A stretch of 64,000 bases of DNA from Gemmatimonadota bacterium (GTDB taxonomy: Bacteria > Gemmatimonadota > Gemmatimonadetes > Longimicrobiales > Gaopeijiaceae): the NCBI GenBank assembly GCA_030430625.1, contig JAUIKL010000003.1:1-64000 (forward strand), written 5' to 3'. Numbering within the stretch: the stretch's first letter is position 1; each line of letters begins with the position of its first letter. This document shows, piece by piece, positions 25,560-35,733 of the stretch. The position numbers and the translations under genes are program-made. The notes beneath the pieces were generated by a model. That model was given only the letters and a program-made list of their open reading frames with translations, had not been told where the DNA came from and made no database searches.

Positions 25560-27713
25560 GTGAAGAGGTCGATTCGAAGTGTGCTCGCGTTCGTCGTGCT
25601 CGCTCTTCCGGGGACGGCGATGGGCCAGAGCGCCGAGCGTACCGCAGTGGCGACGCGGGTCTCTCAGGGCCCCACGATCGATGGCGTGCTCGACGAAACG
25701 TTCTGGCAGACGATTCCGGTCATCTCCGACTTCGTGCAGCGGGAACCGGTCGACGGAGCCCCTGCGTCCGAGCGGACCGAAGTGCGTATCGCCTACGACG
25801 AGGGGCACCTGTACTTCGGCTTCGTCCTCTACGACTCAGAACCCGAGCTGATTCGGCGGAGCATCCTCCACCGCGAGGGACGGATCGACCAGGACGACCA
25901 TATCTGGATCGGTCTCGATTCGTACAACGACGACCGGAACGGGTACATCTTCGAGTTGAACTCGTTCGGCACCCAGGGTGACGCCCTCTTCAACGACGAG
26001 TCGATGACGCTCGACGATTGGAACTGGGAGGGCGTCTACGAGAGCGAGGCACGCATCACCGAGGAGGGGTGGACCCTCGAGGTCGCGATCCCATTCACGA
26101 CGATTCGGTTTGCGGACGCCGCCGCCCCGGAGATGGGCATCGCGATCCGCCGGGCGATCCGCAGGAAGAACGAGGACGTCTACTGGCCTCACATTCCTCA
26201 GGAGTATCGCAGCGGCTTCACGACCGTGTCGCAGTACGCCACCCTGACCGGGTTACAGGACCTGCGCCGCGGGCGCTACATGGAGGTGAAGCCGTTCGCG
26301 ATTGCGGGAGTTCAGAAGAACGCAGGCGAGGACCGGGATGTCCTGGACGACGTCGGGGTGGACTTCAAGTACGCTCTCACGTCGAACCTCGCGCTCGACC
26401 TCACCTACAACACGGACTTCGCCCAGGTCGAGGCGGACAACGTCCAGATCAACCTCACCCGTTTCTCTCTCTTTTTTCCGGAGAAGCGGGAGTTCTTCCT
26501 CGAACGGGCCGGCCTCTTCTCCTTCGGCGCGGCCCGGGACACCGAAGTGTTCTTCAGTCGTCGGATCGGTCGGGAGAACGACATCATCGGTGGTGGACGA
26601 CTCACCGGGCAGGTCGGGCCACTCTCGATCGGTGTGCTGAGCCTCCAGACCGATGACCTGAGTGAGGGAGCGACCGTCCTCGCGCCGGGGGCCAACAACT
26701 CGGTCCTGCGCCTGCGGGCCGATGTCATGCCACGGACGACGTTGGGAGGGATCGTGACGAGCCTCCAGGACGGGGACGGGCACAGCCGAACCTTCGGTGC
26801 GGATACGCAACTTCGCTTCTGGAACAGCAGCGCCCTGACCGCGTGGATCGCGAGCGTGAGGGACTCGGATGCGGGCACCTCGACCGCAGGGGCGGTCGAA
26901 CTCCGGTTGCAGCCGGAGCGTTGGTACTCCCTCACCGGGAACTACCAGACTGTCGACGAGGACTTCGACCCCGCGCTCGGCTTCGTGCGACGCCAGGACA
27001 TGGTGAAGTACGGGGGTACCGTGGCGTACACGCCTCGCTTCGAAGGAAGTGCGTGGGCGCGCTCCCTCGTAGCAGCCTTCGTAGTCGACCGGATCGATGG
27101 TCAGGATGGGGGGCAGCAGTCTTCGAGCCAGCTGTCCCACAACATGCTCACGCTGCAGTCGGGGGACTTCGTCACCCTCAACTTCCGACGTCGGTTCGAG
27201 AGGCTCGACGAGGCGAGCAGCATTCAAGGACGGACGCTCGACCCCGGAGACTACTCGTTCTTTGCCGTGGACGGATCCTTCCGAACGAATCAGAGTCGGA
27301 CCGTCTCGGGCTCCGCGAACCTCTCGGTCGGGGACTTCTGGAACGGGGATCGCACGAGCTTCGGAGGATCGCTCATGTGGAAGACCGGTCCCTACCTCAC
27401 GCTGACGGGTTCGGCGAACCGGAACGACGTGAGTCTTCCGGTCGTCGACGGTGACTTCTCGACGACGGTGCTGAGCCTCGATGTCCTCGGCGCGGTCTCG
27501 CGGAACCTCTTCGCGAACGCGCTCGTGCAGTGGGACGACGTGTCGAAGGAACTCCAGGCCAACATTCGGATCGACTGGATCCACACCCCGGGTAGCGACC
27601 TCTTCCTCGTGCTCGACACCGGCTACTTCACCGGTGAGCTGATGGATCCGAGAGACCCTCGCTTTCTTCGACGGACCGGGGTCGCCAAGCTGACGTACAT
27701 GAAGGCGTTCTAG
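25560..27713 (+). CDS. DUF5916 / carbohydrate-binding family 9-like outer membrane protein
   Basis: GTG start; TIDGVLDETFWQTIPVISDFVQREPVDGAPASERTEVRIAYDEGHLYFGF and FSLFFPEKREFFLERAGLFSFG. Confidence 0.88.
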   Translation: MKRSIRSVLAFVVLALPGTAMGQSAERTAVATRVSQGPTIDGVLDETFWQTIPVISDFVQREPVDGAPASERTEVRIAYDEGHLYFGFVLYDSEPELIRRSILHREGRIDQDDHIWIGLDSYNDDRNGYIFELNSFGTQGDALFNDESMTLDDWNWEGVYESEARITEEGWTLEVAIPFTTIRFADAAAPEMGIAIRRAIRRKNEDVYWPHIPQEYRSGFTTVSQYATLTGLQDLRRGRYMEVKPFAIAGVQKNAGEDRDVLDDVGVDFKYALTSNLALDLTYNTDFAQVEADNVQINLTRFSLFFPEKREFFLERAGLFSFGAARDTEVFFSRRIGRENDIIGGGRLTGQVGPLSIGVLSLQTDDLSEGATVLAPGANNSVLRLRADVMPRTTLGGIVTSLQDGDGHSRTFGADTQLRFWNSSALTAWIASVRDSDAGTSTAGAVELRLQPERWYSLTGNYQTVDEDFDPALGFVRRQDMVKYGGTVAYTPRFEGSAWARSLVAAFVVDRIDGQDGGQQSSSQLSHNMLTLQSGDFVTLNFRRRFERLDEASSIQGRTLDPGDYSFFAVDGSFRTNQSRTVSGSANLSVGDFWNGDRTSFGGSLMWKTGPYLTLTGSANRNDVSLPVVDGDFSTTVLSLDVLGAVSRNLFANALVQWDDVSKELQANIRIDWIHTPGSDLFLVLDTGYFTGELMDPRDPRFLRRTGVAKLTYMKAF

Positions 27714-28062
27714 CTCGTTCGCTTCAGAGGGCCGTCCGATCGGCTCGGGGCCTCCGCCGACTTTGTAGCGAGTGCGTCACGAAATCCGTCCGTGATCGGT
27801 GCTGGTACCGGGTGTCTCGACGGACGTACGAGATCGGCGGACTTCGCCGCCGGGCCGGAAGGCTGGGGGGCACCTTGGTGCCATTCCGATCACTCCTTTC
27901 CGCCCCGACGGGGGGCGCCAGCGACTGGGCCTGAAGCGGCGTGAGGGGACGGGAACCCCCGCGCCCCGGTGCGATCCGCGTCTCGAGTCGCTTGTGGCAC
28001 GGCTTTGGCAGACCGAGTCGACCGTGCGCAAAAAAAATCGGGACCGCCCGATCGATGCACGA

Positions 28063-28160
28063 CGCTGAAAAGAGCAAAACCGTCGAAAGGCGGTGACGCA
28101 GAGCCACGGGGCCTCCGCGATGAGCCATCGTCCATCGCGAAGCCGGCCGAGCCGCCAGCG
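28063..28160 (+). ncRNA. GEMM-I riboswitch-like aptamer (cyclic-di-GMP-I class; possibly cGAMP-type)
   Basis: AGAGCAAAACCGUCGAAAGGCGGUGACGCAGAGCCACGGGGCCUCC...GAAGCCGGCCGAGCCGCC: 6-bp ACCGUC/GGCGGU stem capped by a GAAA tetraloop, GACGCA.AGCC core, GCGAUG/CAUCGC stem, CGCU/AGCG candidate closing helix. Confidence 0.78.
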
Positions 28161-28190
28161 ATCCTCCAGAAATGGAGACTCACTGGCGGC
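28151..28190 (+). promoter_or_regulatory. candidate riboswitch expression platform
   Basis: GCCGCCAG (28151-28158) perfectly complementary to CTGGCGGC (28183-28190), enclosing CTCCA-GAAA-TGGAG (28164-28177); the 5' arm overlaps the aptamer 3' strand. Confidence 0.65.
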
Positions 28191-28279
28191 CCGATTCTTG
28201 ATGTAGGCCGGGGGAGCACCGCGCACAGCCCCCCCACTTACAAATCACTCGAACTCGAACTCGTACGAGTCACGAATCC

Positions 28280-31198
28280 GTGGAGCTGTGCATGTCGTTT
28301 TGGACCCGCTGGGGGGCGGTCGTACCAACCTGGTGTACCCACCCATCCAGAAACGCTCGATCGAATCTGATCATCCTTGCGATCTCGGCGATGAGTGCGT
28401 GCGCGGACGCGACGCCGACCACGATCGTTTCGCTCGAAACCGGACCCGATTTGAGCCTCGCGTCGATTGCAGTCGTCGGAGGTGACAATCAAGCCGCCGA
28501 AGTCGGGGAACTCGCGCCCGGCACGCTGGCGGTTCACGTCGTCGATGGTGAGGGGCGGCCGGTGCCGTCTCTGGCCGTGGAGTGGGACTTCCGTGACGGC
28601 GTCGGTCGCCTCGGATCCACCGAGGACTCGTTCGTCCGCGGCGTGACCGACGCAAACGGGCGGGCCGAGATCCGCTGGATCCTCGGTAGCCGTGCCGGAC
28701 TTCAGCAGGTCGATGTCTCGTTCGGTACACCGACGTCTTCGGCGAGCGCTGCTCCGGGAGGCAACGGCAACGGCCGTCACTCCACGCGGTTCCTCGCCAC
28801 GGCGCGCCCCGGTCGCGGCACGACCTTGGTCGTCGAGCCGGGGTCGTCCACCGCGATCGAGGGCGAGGAAGTTCAGTACACTGCGGAGCTGCAGGATCGC
28901 TACGGTAACGCGGTCACCCCGAGTGACGTCACCTGGTCGTCCGCGAGTCCGGCGGTCGCGACGGTGGACGGCGCCGGGATGGTCTCGGCTCTCGGTGACG
29001 GGACGACCGACATCAGCGCGGAGACCGGTGGCGTCACGGGTACGGCCCGCCTGACCGTCGAAGCGGCGCCCGAGCCCGAACCCGGTGCCCCCGATCGCAT
29101 CACGGATCTGACGATCGAAGACGTGACGCAGACGTCGATTCGTCTGCGCTGGACGCAGGTTCTGGACGGCGCGGGTAGCGCGGCACCGACCATGATCCGG
29201 TTCGACGAAGGTTCGATGCGCTGGAGTGATGCAGACAACACCGAGGTGACCGTCGCCCCGACTCAGGCCGGCCAATCGATGGAGTACACCATCTCCGGGC
29301 TCGAGCCGGACACCCGGTACCAGTTCCAGGTCGCGGGCTATCGGGCGGACGGACCGGACATCGTGTTCGGCAGCCGGTCCCCTCGTGTCGCGGCATCGAC
29401 GGACCCCATCCCCCCGGTCCTGACCACGGTGCTCGTGAGTCCGGGGCAGTCGACGATTCCTGAGGGTGGGGTCGCTTTGCTGAACGCAACCGGCTTCGAC
29501 CAGAACGGGCAGGTCATGTCCGTCGGGTCCTGGAGCTGGACCTCCTCGAACAACTCGGTCGCAACCGTGAACCAGAACGGACTCGTGACCGCACTTTCGA
29601 ACGGAAGCACCACCGTGACCGCCGTGTCACAGGGCGTGTCCGGGGCTGCGAACGTTTCGGTGACGACGGCCGCGCCGATCATCGACTGGGTCGTGGTCAC
29701 CCCCGAGACCACCACGGTCGACGAAGGAGCCGCGGAGCAGCTTGAGGTCCACGTGTTCGACATCTACGGGAATCAGGTTCAGGGTGTCGATGTCTCGTGG
29801 GTGAGCTCGAACCCCGCGATCGCGGGCGTTTCACAGGACGGCTCGGTGCTCGGCAACGAGGCCGGTTCGGCGACGGTGTCGGCCTCCGTCGATGGGGTCA
29901 CGGGGTCCGCGGCCATCGTCGTGAACGGCGACGATCCGGAGCCTCCGGCGGTCGACGAGATCGTGGTGACGCCTGCGACCTCGACCCTGACCGTCGGTGC
30001 TTCGATCGACTTTTCGGCGACGGTATACGACACCGAAGGGAACGTGATGACCGGCGAGTCCGTCACCTGGAGTTCGTCGAACAGCTCGGTCGTCTCGGTG
30101 AACGGTGGTGGTGCTGGCCAGGCCGTCTCCGAGGGAGTCGCGACGGTCAGCGCCACGATCGGATCCGTGTCCGGCTCGGCCTCGGTGATCGTCGAGGAGG
30201 AGGAGGTAGCGGCGGAGGTTGACTGGATCGTCGTGAGTCCGCCGACGCCTACGGTCAGCGTGGGCGGCAACGTGTCGTTCGCGGCGACGGTCTACGACAC
30301 CAACGGCGACGTCATGGCCGGTGAGTCGGTCTCGTGGAGTACTTCGAACGGAGGTGTCCTGTCCGTCGATGGCAACGGCGACGGTGAGGCGCATGCGATC
30401 GGTGTGGCCACCGTCACGGCCACCATCGGCTCGGTGACCGGTACCGCGCTGGTGACCGTCGAGGGTGGGCCCGGCGATCCGCCGCCGGCCGCGACCCCGT
30501 TCTGGGAGCACAACTGGGACTATGCGAGTACCCAGGAGATGATCAACGCGAACACCAACAGCTACTCACTCGGAGAGGTCTCGCTCGAGTCGGGAACGCT
30601 CTTCGATGGTTCGACCGGAAACTTCATGCGCGCACATCTGCGCGGCGATGGCTCGGAGGACGAGACCAACTACGACATGAACATCCCGGGCGCCGGCGCT
30701 GGTGTCACCGATGAAGTGTGGATCGAGATCTGGGTGCGCTTCGATGACAACTGGTACGGCACCTCTGACGACAAGACGCTGTTCGTCTGGCCCGCGCGTG
30801 GTAGCCGTTGGGAGATCCACTATGGCCTCGGACAGCGCGTGTACGGCGGACCGAGCAGCATGCCGGGTGACTTCTTCATCGTGTCGGATGACGGAAATCG
30901 CCTGGACGTGGAGGACGTGTGGGATGGTCAGTGGCACCGTCACAGGCTTCATCTGCGTGCCTCGTCTTCTCAGGGCGCCAGCGATGGAGCCTTCGAGTGG
31001 TGGTTCGACGATCAGGAACTGGTGACCGCGAACCAGCCCGCGCTGTACGGCAGCCGGACCGGTGAGGGTCTGAACACGGGGTCGTCGTACGACACGCACT
31101 TCACCTCGATGCGCCTGGGCGCGAACGCGGATCCGCGTGGTTCGGGGCAGCGGGACTGGGGCCGCATCCGCATCTGGACGTCGAACCCTGGCTGGTGA
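28280..31198 (+). CDS. secreted/lipid-anchored protein with Big2 Ig-like repeats, FN3 domain and C-terminal lectin/polysaccharide-lyase-like domain
   Basis: Signal LIILAISAMSACA; repeated VSPxxSTVxxGxxVxFSATVYDTxGNVMTGESVTWSSSN blocks; FN3-like IRLRWTQV...YTISGLEPDTRYQFQVAGYR; the start may be the downstream ATG at 28292. Confidence 0.85.
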   Translation: MELCMSFWTRWGAVVPTWCTHPSRNARSNLIILAISAMSACADATPTTIVSLETGPDLSLASIAVVGGDNQAAEVGELAPGTLAVHVVDGEGRPVPSLAVEWDFRDGVGRLGSTEDSFVRGVTDANGRAEIRWILGSRAGLQQVDVSFGTPTSSASAAPGGNGNGRHSTRFLATARPGRGTTLVVEPGSSTAIEGEEVQYTAELQDRYGNAVTPSDVTWSSASPAVATVDGAGMVSALGDGTTDISAETGGVTGTARLTVEAAPEPEPGAPDRITDLTIEDVTQTSIRLRWTQVLDGAGSAAPTMIRFDEGSMRWSDADNTEVTVAPTQAGQSMEYTISGLEPDTRYQFQVAGYRADGPDIVFGSRSPRVAASTDPIPPVLTTVLVSPGQSTIPEGGVALLNATGFDQNGQVMSVGSWSWTSSNNSVATVNQNGLVTALSNGSTTVTAVSQGVSGAANVSVTTAAPIIDWVVVTPETTTVDEGAAEQLEVHVFDIYGNQVQGVDVSWVSSNPAIAGVSQDGSVLGNEAGSATVSASVDGVTGSAAIVVNGDDPEPPAVDEIVVTPATSTLTVGASIDFSATVYDTEGNVMTGESVTWSSSNSSVVSVNGGGAGQAVSEGVATVSATIGSVSGSASVIVEEEEVAAEVDWIVVSPPTPTVSVGGNVSFAATVYDTNGDVMAGESVSWSTSNGGVLSVDGNGDGEAHAIGVATVTATIGSVTGTALVTVEGGPGDPPPAATPFWEHNWDYASTQEMINANTNSYSLGEVSLESGTLFDGSTGNFMRAHLRGDGSEDETNYDMNIPGAGAGVTDEVWIEIWVRFDDNWYGTSDDKTLFVWPARGSRWEIHYGLGQRVYGGPSSMPGDFFIVSDDGNRLDVEDVWDGQWHRHRLHLRASSSQGASDGAFEWWFDDQELVTANQPALYGSRTGEGLNTGSSYDTHFTSMRLGANADPRGSGQRDWGRIRIWTSNPGW

Positions 31199-32696: not shown

Positions 32697-33299
32697 TCAG
32701 TCGTCGACCTCGACCTCGATGTTCGACAGGACCGATCGTCCGGTGATCCTCACCAAGGTGCTTCTTTCGTGGTCTCGCCGCCCGGATCGCCCGCGAATCG
32801 AAAAGCTCGACAGGAAGGCCTGGCCCTCGTCCTCGACGTGGACGTGTTCGGGCAGCTCGATCTCGATATTGGCCATGACCGCCTGCATCCGGATCTCTGT
32901 AACTCCAGGCGGAAAGTCCGCCCGCCTCAGATCGAGTTCCAACGAGCCCATCACGGAGCGGACTTCGAGGCATTCCGGCATCGGCCCCTGGATCTTCCTT
33001 TCGATCGAGGAGAGCACGGACGTCATTTGTCGACTCGGGCGACGAGCGAGGGATTCCGACGCCTCGGTCCGCATCGGCACGTCGGAGGGCGCGTCCGAGC
33101 GTGTCGCCAGGTCTTTCGTGATCGACACGAGGGCCTTGGACGTTTGTGCCGCATACACGTCTGCGACCCTCCGCTCGAACTCGTCCACGGCGATCGCGTC
33201 CTGAGCGAAGGCCTGGGACAGGACGCGCACGGCCGCGTCTCGTTCTTCGGCTGTCGGGAGCCGGACGACGGCCTTCGGGGATCCGTTCGGGTCGTTCAT
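32697..33299 (-). CDS. DUF1707 domain protein with LiaF-like C-terminal region
   Basis: TAEERDAAVRVLSQAFAQDAIAVDEFERRVADVYAAQT is DUF1707-like; C-terminal MGSLELDLRRADFPPGVTEIRMQAVMANIEIELPEHV. Confidence 0.85.
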   Translation of the reverse strand: MNDPNGSPKAVVRLPTAEERDAAVRVLSQAFAQDAIAVDEFERRVADVYAAQTSKALVSITKDLATRSDAPSDVPMRTEASESLARRPSRQMTSVLSSIERKIQGPMPECLEVRSVMGSLELDLRRADFPPGVTEIRMQAVMANIEIELPEHVHVEDEGQAFLSSFSIRGRSGRRDHERSTLVRITGRSVLSNIEVEVDD

Positions 33300-33474
33300 G
33301 TTCGCTCGCTCATGCGCTCAAGGTACCCGGTCCGCGGTGACCCGCCGAGACTTTTTCGCGCGGGGCGGGGGCCGACTGGCCCGACCGGCCCGGGCGCGAT
33401 ACGATCCGGCGCCGATCGGTCGCGCCCCGCCCGCCAGACCCTCGCGACCGGCCACGGATCGCGGAGATCGTACA

Positions 33475-35733
33475 GTGAGGAACGAAGGGCGGTTGCCAGC
33501 GGGCGGCCACGGGTATTCGAAGCAGACGGGGCCGGCGATGGCCACCCTTCTTCTGGGGGGGCTTCTCTTCGCAACCGGGATCACGGCCCAAACGCCGATC
33601 GACCTCGACGACGCCCCGCGACCGACGGCACAAGCGGCTCGCGCGAGCGGACCCATCGAGATCGACGGCATGCTCGACGAGGCCACGTGGTCCGCGGCGC
33701 CCCTGATCGACGACTTCTGGCAGCAGAAGCCCGACGACGGCATGCCGTCGACCGAACGCACCGAGGTGCGGATCCTCTTCGACGACGCCTACCTCTACGT
33801 CGGTGCCGAGATGTTCGACGAGGGGCCCGGCGGGTACCGAGCGATCGTACCGACACTTCAGAGGGATCCGAATACGCGCGACGGTGATGCACTGGGAATC
33901 GCCTTGGATCCCTTCCTCGACGGATCGACCGTCTTCGCCTTCTTCATCAACCCGGGCGGGGCGATCCGGGACGTTCAGACCGCGGACGACGGGCGCATCA
34001 ACAACGCGGCCTGGGATGCGGCGGTCGACCTGCGCACCAGGGTTCACGGGACGGGGTGGACATTGGAGCTGGCCATCCCGTGGTCCCAGCTCCGCTTCGA
34101 CGCTTCGGCCGACGAGCAGGTGTGGGGGTTGAACCTCCTTCGCCGGATTCGCCGGAAGAACGAGGACGCCAGTTGGGCGCCGATGGATCGCCGGTGGCAG
34201 CTGTACGTCACATCGCGCGCGGGCCGACTGACGGGCATCGAGGGTGTGCGGCCCGGACGAAACCTGTCGATCAAGCCGTTCGCCCTGGCGTCGCATCCCT
34301 CGGGGACCCTCCTGGAGGGCGTCGGTAGCGACTTCGACGCCGGGCTCGATCTGAAGTACGGGCTGACGCCGGGCCTGACCGCCGATCTCACGTTGAACAC
34401 GGACTTCAGCCAGGTCGAGGTGGATCAGGAGCAGGTGAACCTGACTCGCTTCTCTCTCTTCTTTCCGGAGAAGCGGGAGTTCTTCCTCGAAAATGCCGGT
34501 GTGTTCCAGTTCGGTGACCAGGGGAACCGACAGACCCGATCGGGCGCGACCAATCAGGACTTCACCCTCTTCCACTCACGCCGCATCGGCCTGACACCCA
34601 CGGGCGCTCCCCTTCCGATCCTCGGCGGCGGTCGGGTGACCGGATCGCTGGGGCCCGTCTCGCTCGGGGTGCTGAACATGCAGACCCGCCGCGACGGAGA
34701 CTTTTCACCGGAGAACTTCTCCGTAGCCAGGGTGCGCGGTGAGCCGGCGCCGGGCCTCAGCGTCGGCGGGATCTTCGTCAACCGAGCCGAGACCGGGGGT
34801 GGGTCGGCGGTCAATCGCAGTTATGGTGCGGACGCGAGTCTGCAGGCGATGAACGGATACCTGCTCGTGCAGTCGTACCTGGCTGCGACCGACGGTGCGA
34901 CGGAGGATGGGACGTCCATCGACCGGGGATGGGCGGGACGCTTCTCGGCCGGCTGGCGCGACCCGTTCTGGGAGGTATTCGCGCTGTACCGCCAGCTCGA
35001 CGAGGCGTTCGACCCGGGGGTCGGGTTCGTCCGGCGCAAGGGAATGCGCCATACGTACGGCACGTTCGGTGTTCGACCTCGCACGACGGTACTCGGACTT
35101 CAGTCCCTCAATCCGTACATCGAGGCTCATCGGTACGCGGACTTCGACGGCGACCTGCAGACACGGCTGGCCACATTCGGACTCGGGTACGAGTTCGGGG
35201 ACGGTGGGATGGGTTCGATCGGAGTCACGGACCGTTTCGAGCGGGTGGACGAGCCGTTCTCGGTCCGCGGGGTCGAGGTCGGGGTCGGGGAATACGGCTT
35301 CGTCGAGGGATCGGCGTCGTATCAGTCGAGCGGAGCGAGGCCGGTTTCGATCCAGGCCAACGTCAGTGGAGGTCAGTACTTCGGCGGGGATCGACGCTCC
35401 GTTGGCGGCACGCTCCTCGGTCGAGTCGGAGGCCAGCTGCTCATGAACGTGTCGGTCGACCACAACCGCATCGAGTTGCCGGGGCAGGCTGCGACGACGG
35501 CTGATGTCTATGGCACGAACCTGGATGTCTTTTTCTCGACCACCCTCATGGCCAGCGCTTTCCTCCAGTACAACGAGGCGGAGGAGCAGTTGGTCACGAA
35601 TCTCCGTTTCCGGTGGATCCACGCGCCGCTCTCCGACCTCTACATCGTGCTGACCGAAAGGAGGGACACCGGAGCGAACCAGGTGCTGGATCGTTTCCTC
35701 ACCGCGAAGGTGACCAAGCTCATCGCGTTCTGA
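33475..35733 (+). CDS. DUF5916 / carbohydrate-binding family 9-like outer membrane protein (second paralog)
   Basis: IEIDGMLDEATWSAAPLIDDFWQQKPDDGMPSTERTEVRILFDDAYLYVGAEM; FSLFFPEKREFFLENAGVFQFG; GTG start at 33475 or ATG at 33538 inferred. Confidence 0.87.
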   Translation: MRNEGRLPAGGHGYSKQTGPAMATLLLGGLLFATGITAQTPIDLDDAPRPTAQAARASGPIEIDGMLDEATWSAAPLIDDFWQQKPDDGMPSTERTEVRILFDDAYLYVGAEMFDEGPGGYRAIVPTLQRDPNTRDGDALGIALDPFLDGSTVFAFFINPGGAIRDVQTADDGRINNAAWDAAVDLRTRVHGTGWTLELAIPWSQLRFDASADEQVWGLNLLRRIRRKNEDASWAPMDRRWQLYVTSRAGRLTGIEGVRPGRNLSIKPFALASHPSGTLLEGVGSDFDAGLDLKYGLTPGLTADLTLNTDFSQVEVDQEQVNLTRFSLFFPEKREFFLENAGVFQFGDQGNRQTRSGATNQDFTLFHSRRIGLTPTGAPLPILGGGRVTGSLGPVSLGVLNMQTRRDGDFSPENFSVARVRGEPAPGLSVGGIFVNRAETGGGSAVNRSYGADASLQAMNGYLLVQSYLAATDGATEDGTSIDRGWAGRFSAGWRDPFWEVFALYRQLDEAFDPGVGFVRRKGMRHTYGTFGVRPRTTVLGLQSLNPYIEAHRYADFDGDLQTRLATFGLGYEFGDGGMGSIGVTDRFERVDEPFSVRGVEVGVGEYGFVEGSASYQSSGARPVSIQANVSGGQYFGGDRRSVGGTLLGRVGGQLLMNVSVDHNRIELPGQAATTADVYGTNLDVFFSTTLMASAFLQYNEAEEQLVTNLRFRWIHAPLSDLYIVLTERRDTGANQVLDRFLTAKVTKLIAF

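Follow-up and report, generated by a model that had tools for sequence, protein, structure and literature searches.

Riboswitch-based signalling by 3',3'-cGAMP (cAMP-GMP) is documented mainly in Geobacter and its relatives. In Geobacter and Bdellovibrio, cGAMP is made by Hypr GGDEF enzymes, in which Ser or Thr replaces the canonical Asp at the position of PleD D344 (PMC9140294, PMC6456294), and ON switches built on competition between P1 and a terminator have been described in Geobacter for pilM and pgcA (PMC9262584, PMC6456294). Ligand choice in GEMM-I aptamers has been linked to the final base of J1/2, which is G20 in the Vibrio cholerae aptamer Vc2; its counterpart in Gm0970, a cGAMP aptamer from Geobacter, is A14 (PMC6274999). 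In a survey of tandem riboswitches, G at this position denoted c-di-GMP selectivity and A denoted cAMP-GMP selectivity (PMC9481103), and the G20A and A14 marker is also given in PMC7288161 and PMC6274999. A GEMM-I aptamer with this G-to-A pocket change, the cluster-3 aptamer of Desulfobacca acetoxidans, had measurably improved cAMP-GMP binding and retained much of its c-di-GMP affinity (PMC9481103).

We analysed a 64,000-nucleotide stretch of a Gemmatimonadota genome (the window), in which an aptamer of this kind precedes a gene for a surface protein. The leader holds a true GEMM-I riboswitch. It belongs to a variant that we call A20/G48 after two of its pocket bases in Vc2 numbering. Using cmscan, nucleotides 28063–28159 (+) were aligned to RF01051 (c-di-GMP-I) along the full model (positions 1–87 of 87, uncut) with 53.7 bits, against a gathering cut-off of 35 bits, and an E-value of 1.1e-7 computed over the whole window. 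This was the sole match of any Rfam family at gathering score in the window, and the single RF01051 match in the genome assembly (3.46 Mb, 294 contigs, 87% complete). The core pattern AGCAAA-N-CGAAAG-N-GACGCAGAGC occurred once in the window and in none of 100 shuffles. The initial annotation had assigned 28063–28160 (+) to GEMM-I, citing a GAAA loop, a GACGCA core, a second stem and a GCCGG..GCC 3' strand; each of these is present in the sequence that it quoted, and the Rfam score and the retained invariant core bases bear the assignment out. It named c-di-GMP and cGAMP as alternative ligands without choosing between them. It did not remark that the core reads GACGCA-G-AGC where the family has GACGCAAAGC, or that the base preceding P2 is A where RF01051 has G. 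The features are collected in Table 1.

Table 1. Features of the riboswitch and its regulated gene, with positions numbered from the first nucleotide of the window.
Feature	Position	Strand	Basis
GEMM-I (c-di-GMP-I) aptamer, A20/G48 subtype	28063..28160	+	RF01051, 53.7 bits; helix covariation in 48 related aptamers
P1 5' strand CGCUG, partner CAGCG at 28156–28160	28063..28067	+	P1 cells 94.6% paired; both-side changes in 3 of 5 pairs
A at the Vc2 G20 position (Gm0970 A14), ligand-selectivity base	28073	+	Model position 11, cmscan alignment; role from PMC9481103, PMC6274999, PMC7288161
P2, GAAA tetraloop at 28085–28088	28074..28099	+	cmscan alignment; covariation
J2/3: A47 = 28100, G48 = 28101 (A in the G20 class)	28100..28101	+	cmscan alignment; A20–G48 linkage
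P3, perfect 7-bp distal hairpin 28116–28122/28133–28139	28103..28152	+	cmscan; distal hairpin folding z −3.7
C at the Vc2 C92 position, pairs with ligand G	28155	+	cmscan alignment; role from PMC6274999 (C75)
Predicted terminator/anti-P1 hairpin GCCGCCAG...CUGGCGGC	28151..28190	+	−27.5 kcal/mol, z −6.35, 0 of 200 shuffles; 63 of 79 related loci arranged likewise
GGAG, probable Shine-Dalgarno for ATG 28292	28282..28285	+	Read from sequence
Regulated gene, predicted lipoprotein	28292..31198	+	Pfam; ORF listed from GTG 28280

The cmscan alignment and covariation in 48 aptamers show a three-way junction of P1, P3 and a GNRA-capped P2, with A as the last base before P2. The helices, GAAA tetraloop, GACGCA core and C92 are common to Vc2 (canonical RF01051), but where Vc2 has G20 and A48 the window has A20 and G48. 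The same fold, with A at G20 and C at C92, is that of the Geobacter GEMM-Ib riboswitches (Gm0970 and Gs1761/pgcA), from which the window's aptamer differs in keeping the canonical GC..AAA/GAC..GC bulge and GAAA loop in P2, and in having G at position 48 where the corresponding Gm0970 residue, A42, is A (PMC6274999). The base combination of GEMM-Ib (A 28073 with C 28155) is therefore present and the G20 of GEMM-Ia is not; by the published rule, the A at 28073 indicates the cGAMP subclass. RF03167 (c-di-GMP-I-GGC), of the same clan and with similar stems, has a consensus in which the G of G20 is retained; membership in it was rejected, as the window's aptamer scored 50.6 bits, below the cut-off of 59.

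The structure is well supported across the subtype. In the 48 A20/G48 aptamers, 91.3% of cells in the helices of the cmscan structure were paired (83.9% in shuffles) and 16 of 27 pairs showed changes on both sides, with none of 500 shuffles as good, while sliding the partner strand by 1–3 columns lowered pairing to 24–47%. RNAalifold returned essentially the same structure for these aptamers. The tetraloop-receptor region of the window's aptamer reads CCUCC/GAA, as against the CUAC/AUG usual in the subtype.

The 3' end of the aptamer overlaps a strong predicted hairpin (28151–28190), which cannot form together with P1, the base of P3 and the ligand pairing of C92; the initial annotation had not remarked this overlap. 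In folding calculations it supplants P1 once about 126–130 nt from 28063 have been transcribed. The arrangement recurs among relatives: the P1-closing, C92-bearing strand (GCCGCCAGC) finds a downstream complement with at least 8 of 9 pairs in 63 of the 79 loci with a readable 3' strand, compared with about 9% of shuffles, and in 48 of those 63 loci a T-rich tail follows the complementary strand. As the terminator shares a strand with P1/P3 and C92, ligand should prevent termination, and the element is most likely an ON switch for the lipoprotein gene, a direction read from the arrangement of the sequence; Geobacter GEMM-Ib riboswitches are likewise ON switches that set P1 against a terminator (PMC6456294, PMC9262584, PMC6274999). 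Without ligand, 28151–28158 would pair with 28183–28190 and RNA polymerase would tend to stop ahead of the gene. A cyclic dinucleotide bound at the three-way junction would lock P1, the base of P3 and C92, thereby blocking the terminator hairpin and allowing the surface lipoprotein to be made, with a possible effect on adhesion. If the preferred ligand is 3',3'-cGAMP, A28073 would read its adenine side and C28155 its guanine side. Termination may be leaky, since only 4 of 10 bases in the U tract are T and the tail at 28191–28203 is only weakly U-rich. A sigma-70-type promoter was sought upstream of the aptamer and none was found; a minus-strand terminator-like hairpin with eight T lies just upstream, at 28036–28053 (−).

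A Big2/FN3 gene had been placed about 120 nt downstream of the aptamer, and this is confirmed by Pfam, at 119 nt from the listed GTG start (28280) or 131 nt from the better ATG start. A leader position ahead of a membrane, surface or motility gene is in keeping with GEMM-I. The encoded protein has a signal sequence with a lipobox-like AMSAC motif (Cys codon 28400–28402), five Big_2 domains, one fn3 domain (about 29099–29353) and a C-terminal jelly-roll-like domain (about 30494–31195). For this last domain the predicted fold is of low confidence (mean pLDDT 55), the jelly-roll/lectin and polysaccharide-lyase matches are weak, and a sequence search of the PDB gave no significant match of use. 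It recurs at four other A20/G48 loci (L059, L074, L075 and L085). A paralogue of the domain, 66% identical (L300, G000:C194:6523-7296), stands behind a shorter signal/Big_2-like part, with no riboswitch nearby. Two CBM9-like/DUF5916 proteins flank the region of the Big_2 gene, at 25560–27713 (+) and 33298–35733 (+); the upstream neighbouring ORF ends at 27713.

To define the linkage between positions 20 and 48, we searched 395 Gemmatimonadota genomes with RGCAAA-N5-CGAAAG-N5-GACGCARAGC, a pattern that admits all four base combinations. Among the approximately 150 aptamers listed, A20 always occurred with G48 and G20 always with A48, with none mixed; the fetched loci, many of them fetched using the A20/G48 pattern, comprised 104 A20/G48, 18 G20/A48 and 0 mixed. 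In place of A48, which accepts from the guanine of the ligand, G48 might donate to the ligand's adenine. The two classes also differ in J1/2, usually CTCAG in A20/G48 (AAAAG in the window) versus ACAAA or ACAAC in G20/A48. In data with one genome per species, the exact A20/G48 pattern matched 113 stretches, at least one of which (locus L083) is a chance match; most were in Gemmatimonadota, with others in Nitrospirota (including Manganitrophus), Eisenbacteria, Zixibacteria and ANGP1. A literature search, beyond whose reach lay the founding GEMM-Ib papers (Kellenberger 2015, Nelson 2015), returned none joining Gemmatimonadota, cGAMP and riboswitch. We regard A20/G48 as a variant of the known GEMM-I kind and claim no priority for it.

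The two classes precede different genes. Taking as target the longest ORF downstream of each aptamer, chosen regardless of function, we found Big_2 in 38, Big_1 in 32 and fn3 in 17 of 73 A20/G48 targets, many of which start with a lipoprotein-like signal. The 12 G20/A48 targets from relatives had no Big_2 (p 4e-4 for 38/73 vs 0/12) and no fn3, and include a GGDEF-EAL protein, M23 peptidases, a CAP protein and GH26-like proteins. The Big_2-type gene class is thus a hallmark of the A20/G48 subtype, and since the two co-resident aptamer classes have distinct targets they probably read different signals. Known Geobacter targets are cytochromes and pili, whereas A20/G48 targets Big_2/fn3 lipoproteins, in the lineage Gemmatimonadota; the Desulfobacca acetoxidans aptamer is paired with AdoCbl riboswitches and, unlike the window's, is unlinked to Big_2 lipoproteins.

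To find Ser/Thr-type GGDEF proteins, we scanned the 395 Gemmatimonadota genomes for DNA encoding ND..GH..G-S/T and translated the matches. In 42 genomes this gave true GGDEF ORFs carrying Ser, and these co-occurred with A20/G48 (both in 26 genomes, A20/G48 only in 25, Ser-GGDEF only in 16, neither in 328; Fisher p 4e-16). The same tally was 23/1/4/53 in family f4, with Ser-GGDEF in 23 of its 24 A20/G48 carriers, and 7/1/3/23 by genus (p 1.6e-4); the counts per family and per genus were compiled manually, and kinship is addressed by the genus tally alone. The co-occurrence is partly a matter of shared ancestry. Ser-GGDEF was found in 4 of 57 genomes carrying only G20/A48. Outside Gemmatimonadota, A20/G48-bearing genomes with Ser-GGDEF ORFs comprised two Eisenbacteria and six Nitrospirota (two of them Manganitrophus), and two ANGP1 genomes carrying A20/G48 had Thr-GGDEF. 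The Gemmatimonadota Ser-type (Hypr-like) proteins (loci L157-L182 and L186-L205) have N-terminal membrane, GAF-like or FHA-like regions and are putative cGAMP synthases.

The window's own family presents a different picture. We read all 10 GGDEF matches from the window's genome, which is 87% complete: at the D344 position none carries Ser or Thr, nor does any alignable GGDEF domain in eight further A20/G48 genomes of the family, one of which is a single 4.2 Mb contig. With every GGDEF match read, a hidden Hypr enzyme in these genomes was rejected. A search with a Hypr-domain profile gave canonical GGDEFs as best matches in carriers of families f1, f2, f3 and f5 and in genome G346 of f4, and no SMODS domain (DncV-like synthase) scored above cut-off in 24 carriers, with no hit for the window's genome and its eight A20/G48 relatives. 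One other genome of the genus (G005) encodes a Ser protein, but its motif is GGEEF; engineered enzymes combining the two were reportedly inactive (PMC6456294), and the genome gave no match to A20/G48. The assembly may lack the synthase, the synthase may be of another kind, or the aptamers of the window's family may answer c-di-GMP.

These observations bear on what the riboswitch senses. That the same ON switch responds here to c-di-GMP, or to both messengers, despite A20 is a substantial possibility, about one in three by our estimate: the genome encodes GGDEF cyclases of the canonical GH..GD type but nothing recognisable as a cGAMP synthase, eight related A20/G48 genomes look the same, and c-di-GMP affinity persisted in an A20 aptamer from Desulfobacca (PMC9481103). 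A single shared ligand would, however, make it hard to explain why A20/G48 and G20/A48 stand so sharply apart in sequence and targets, often within one genome, and why A20/G48 co-occurs with Ser-GGDEF elsewhere. From its pocket bases, cGAMP is favoured over c-di-GMP as the ligand here, unproven because no cGAMP synthase was found in the window's genome. The weak U tract and the divergent tetraloop-receptor region also count against the cGAMP ON-switch reading. With modest confidence, we thus read the element as an A20/G48 GEMM-I transcriptional ON switch that probably prefers 3',3'-cGAMP, set before a Big_2/fn3 lipoprotein gene.

It is improbable that the riboswitch and gene are a laterally acquired or relic unit whose aptamer became unresponsive after the genome lost the messenger. 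GEMM-I gave no match in the genus's 13 other genomes, the window's genome holds only one copy, the gene on contig C194 with the paralogous C-terminal domain lacks a riboswitch and the U tract is weak, but the invariant core bases and helices are all intact, and a relic drifting freely would soon lose them. A chance fold mimicking the family might be suspected, since the leader has a high GC content and the isolated aptamer outdoes its shuffled versions in folding only moderately (z −1.86); the full-length Rfam match, the covariation and the conserved place before the same gene class in more than 70 loci make such mimicry exceedingly unlikely, and we rejected it.

More tentatively than for the single locus, and at slightly less than even confidence, we suggest that A20/G48 may be a discrete cGAMP riboswitch subtype outside Desulfobacterota, switching on Big_2/fn3 lipoproteins in Gemmatimonadota, Nitrospirota and Eisenbacteria, in which A48G would compensate for the ligand adenine and some Gemmatimonadota tandems with a c-di-GMP-type aptamer would act as AND gates. 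A subtype tied to Ser-type GGDEF proteins and one class of surface protein would make a cGAMP regulon readable in uncultured members of Gemmatimonadota and in further phyla of soil and sediment. Its natural aptamers, some in heterotypic tandem, would also offer material for studying what turns a single RNA scaffold from c-di-GMP to cGAMP or back.

Heterotypic tandems were seen at eight loci (L052, L055, L081, L093, L094, L098, L106 and L154), each with an A20/G48 aptamer and its own terminator followed 158–183 nt later by a G20/A48 aptamer, and with a Big_2 lipoprotein gene next in most. Both aptamers passed Rfam in the four tandems checked, and the arrangement is a candidate two-messenger AND gate. 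Homotypic A20/G48 arrays of three (L063) and two (L120) aptamers also occur. Relatives of the window carry another GEMM-I variant, CGGCACCCC..GGUCCGCAAAG (L030, L033, L034, L035 and L036), in which the P2 bulge changes from AAA/GAC to ACC/UCC and G20 is retained. At Nitrospirota locus L090, an A20/G48 aptamer precedes an apparent multihaem cytochrome with a single match to class III cytochromes, which recalls the cGAMP regulon of Geobacter.
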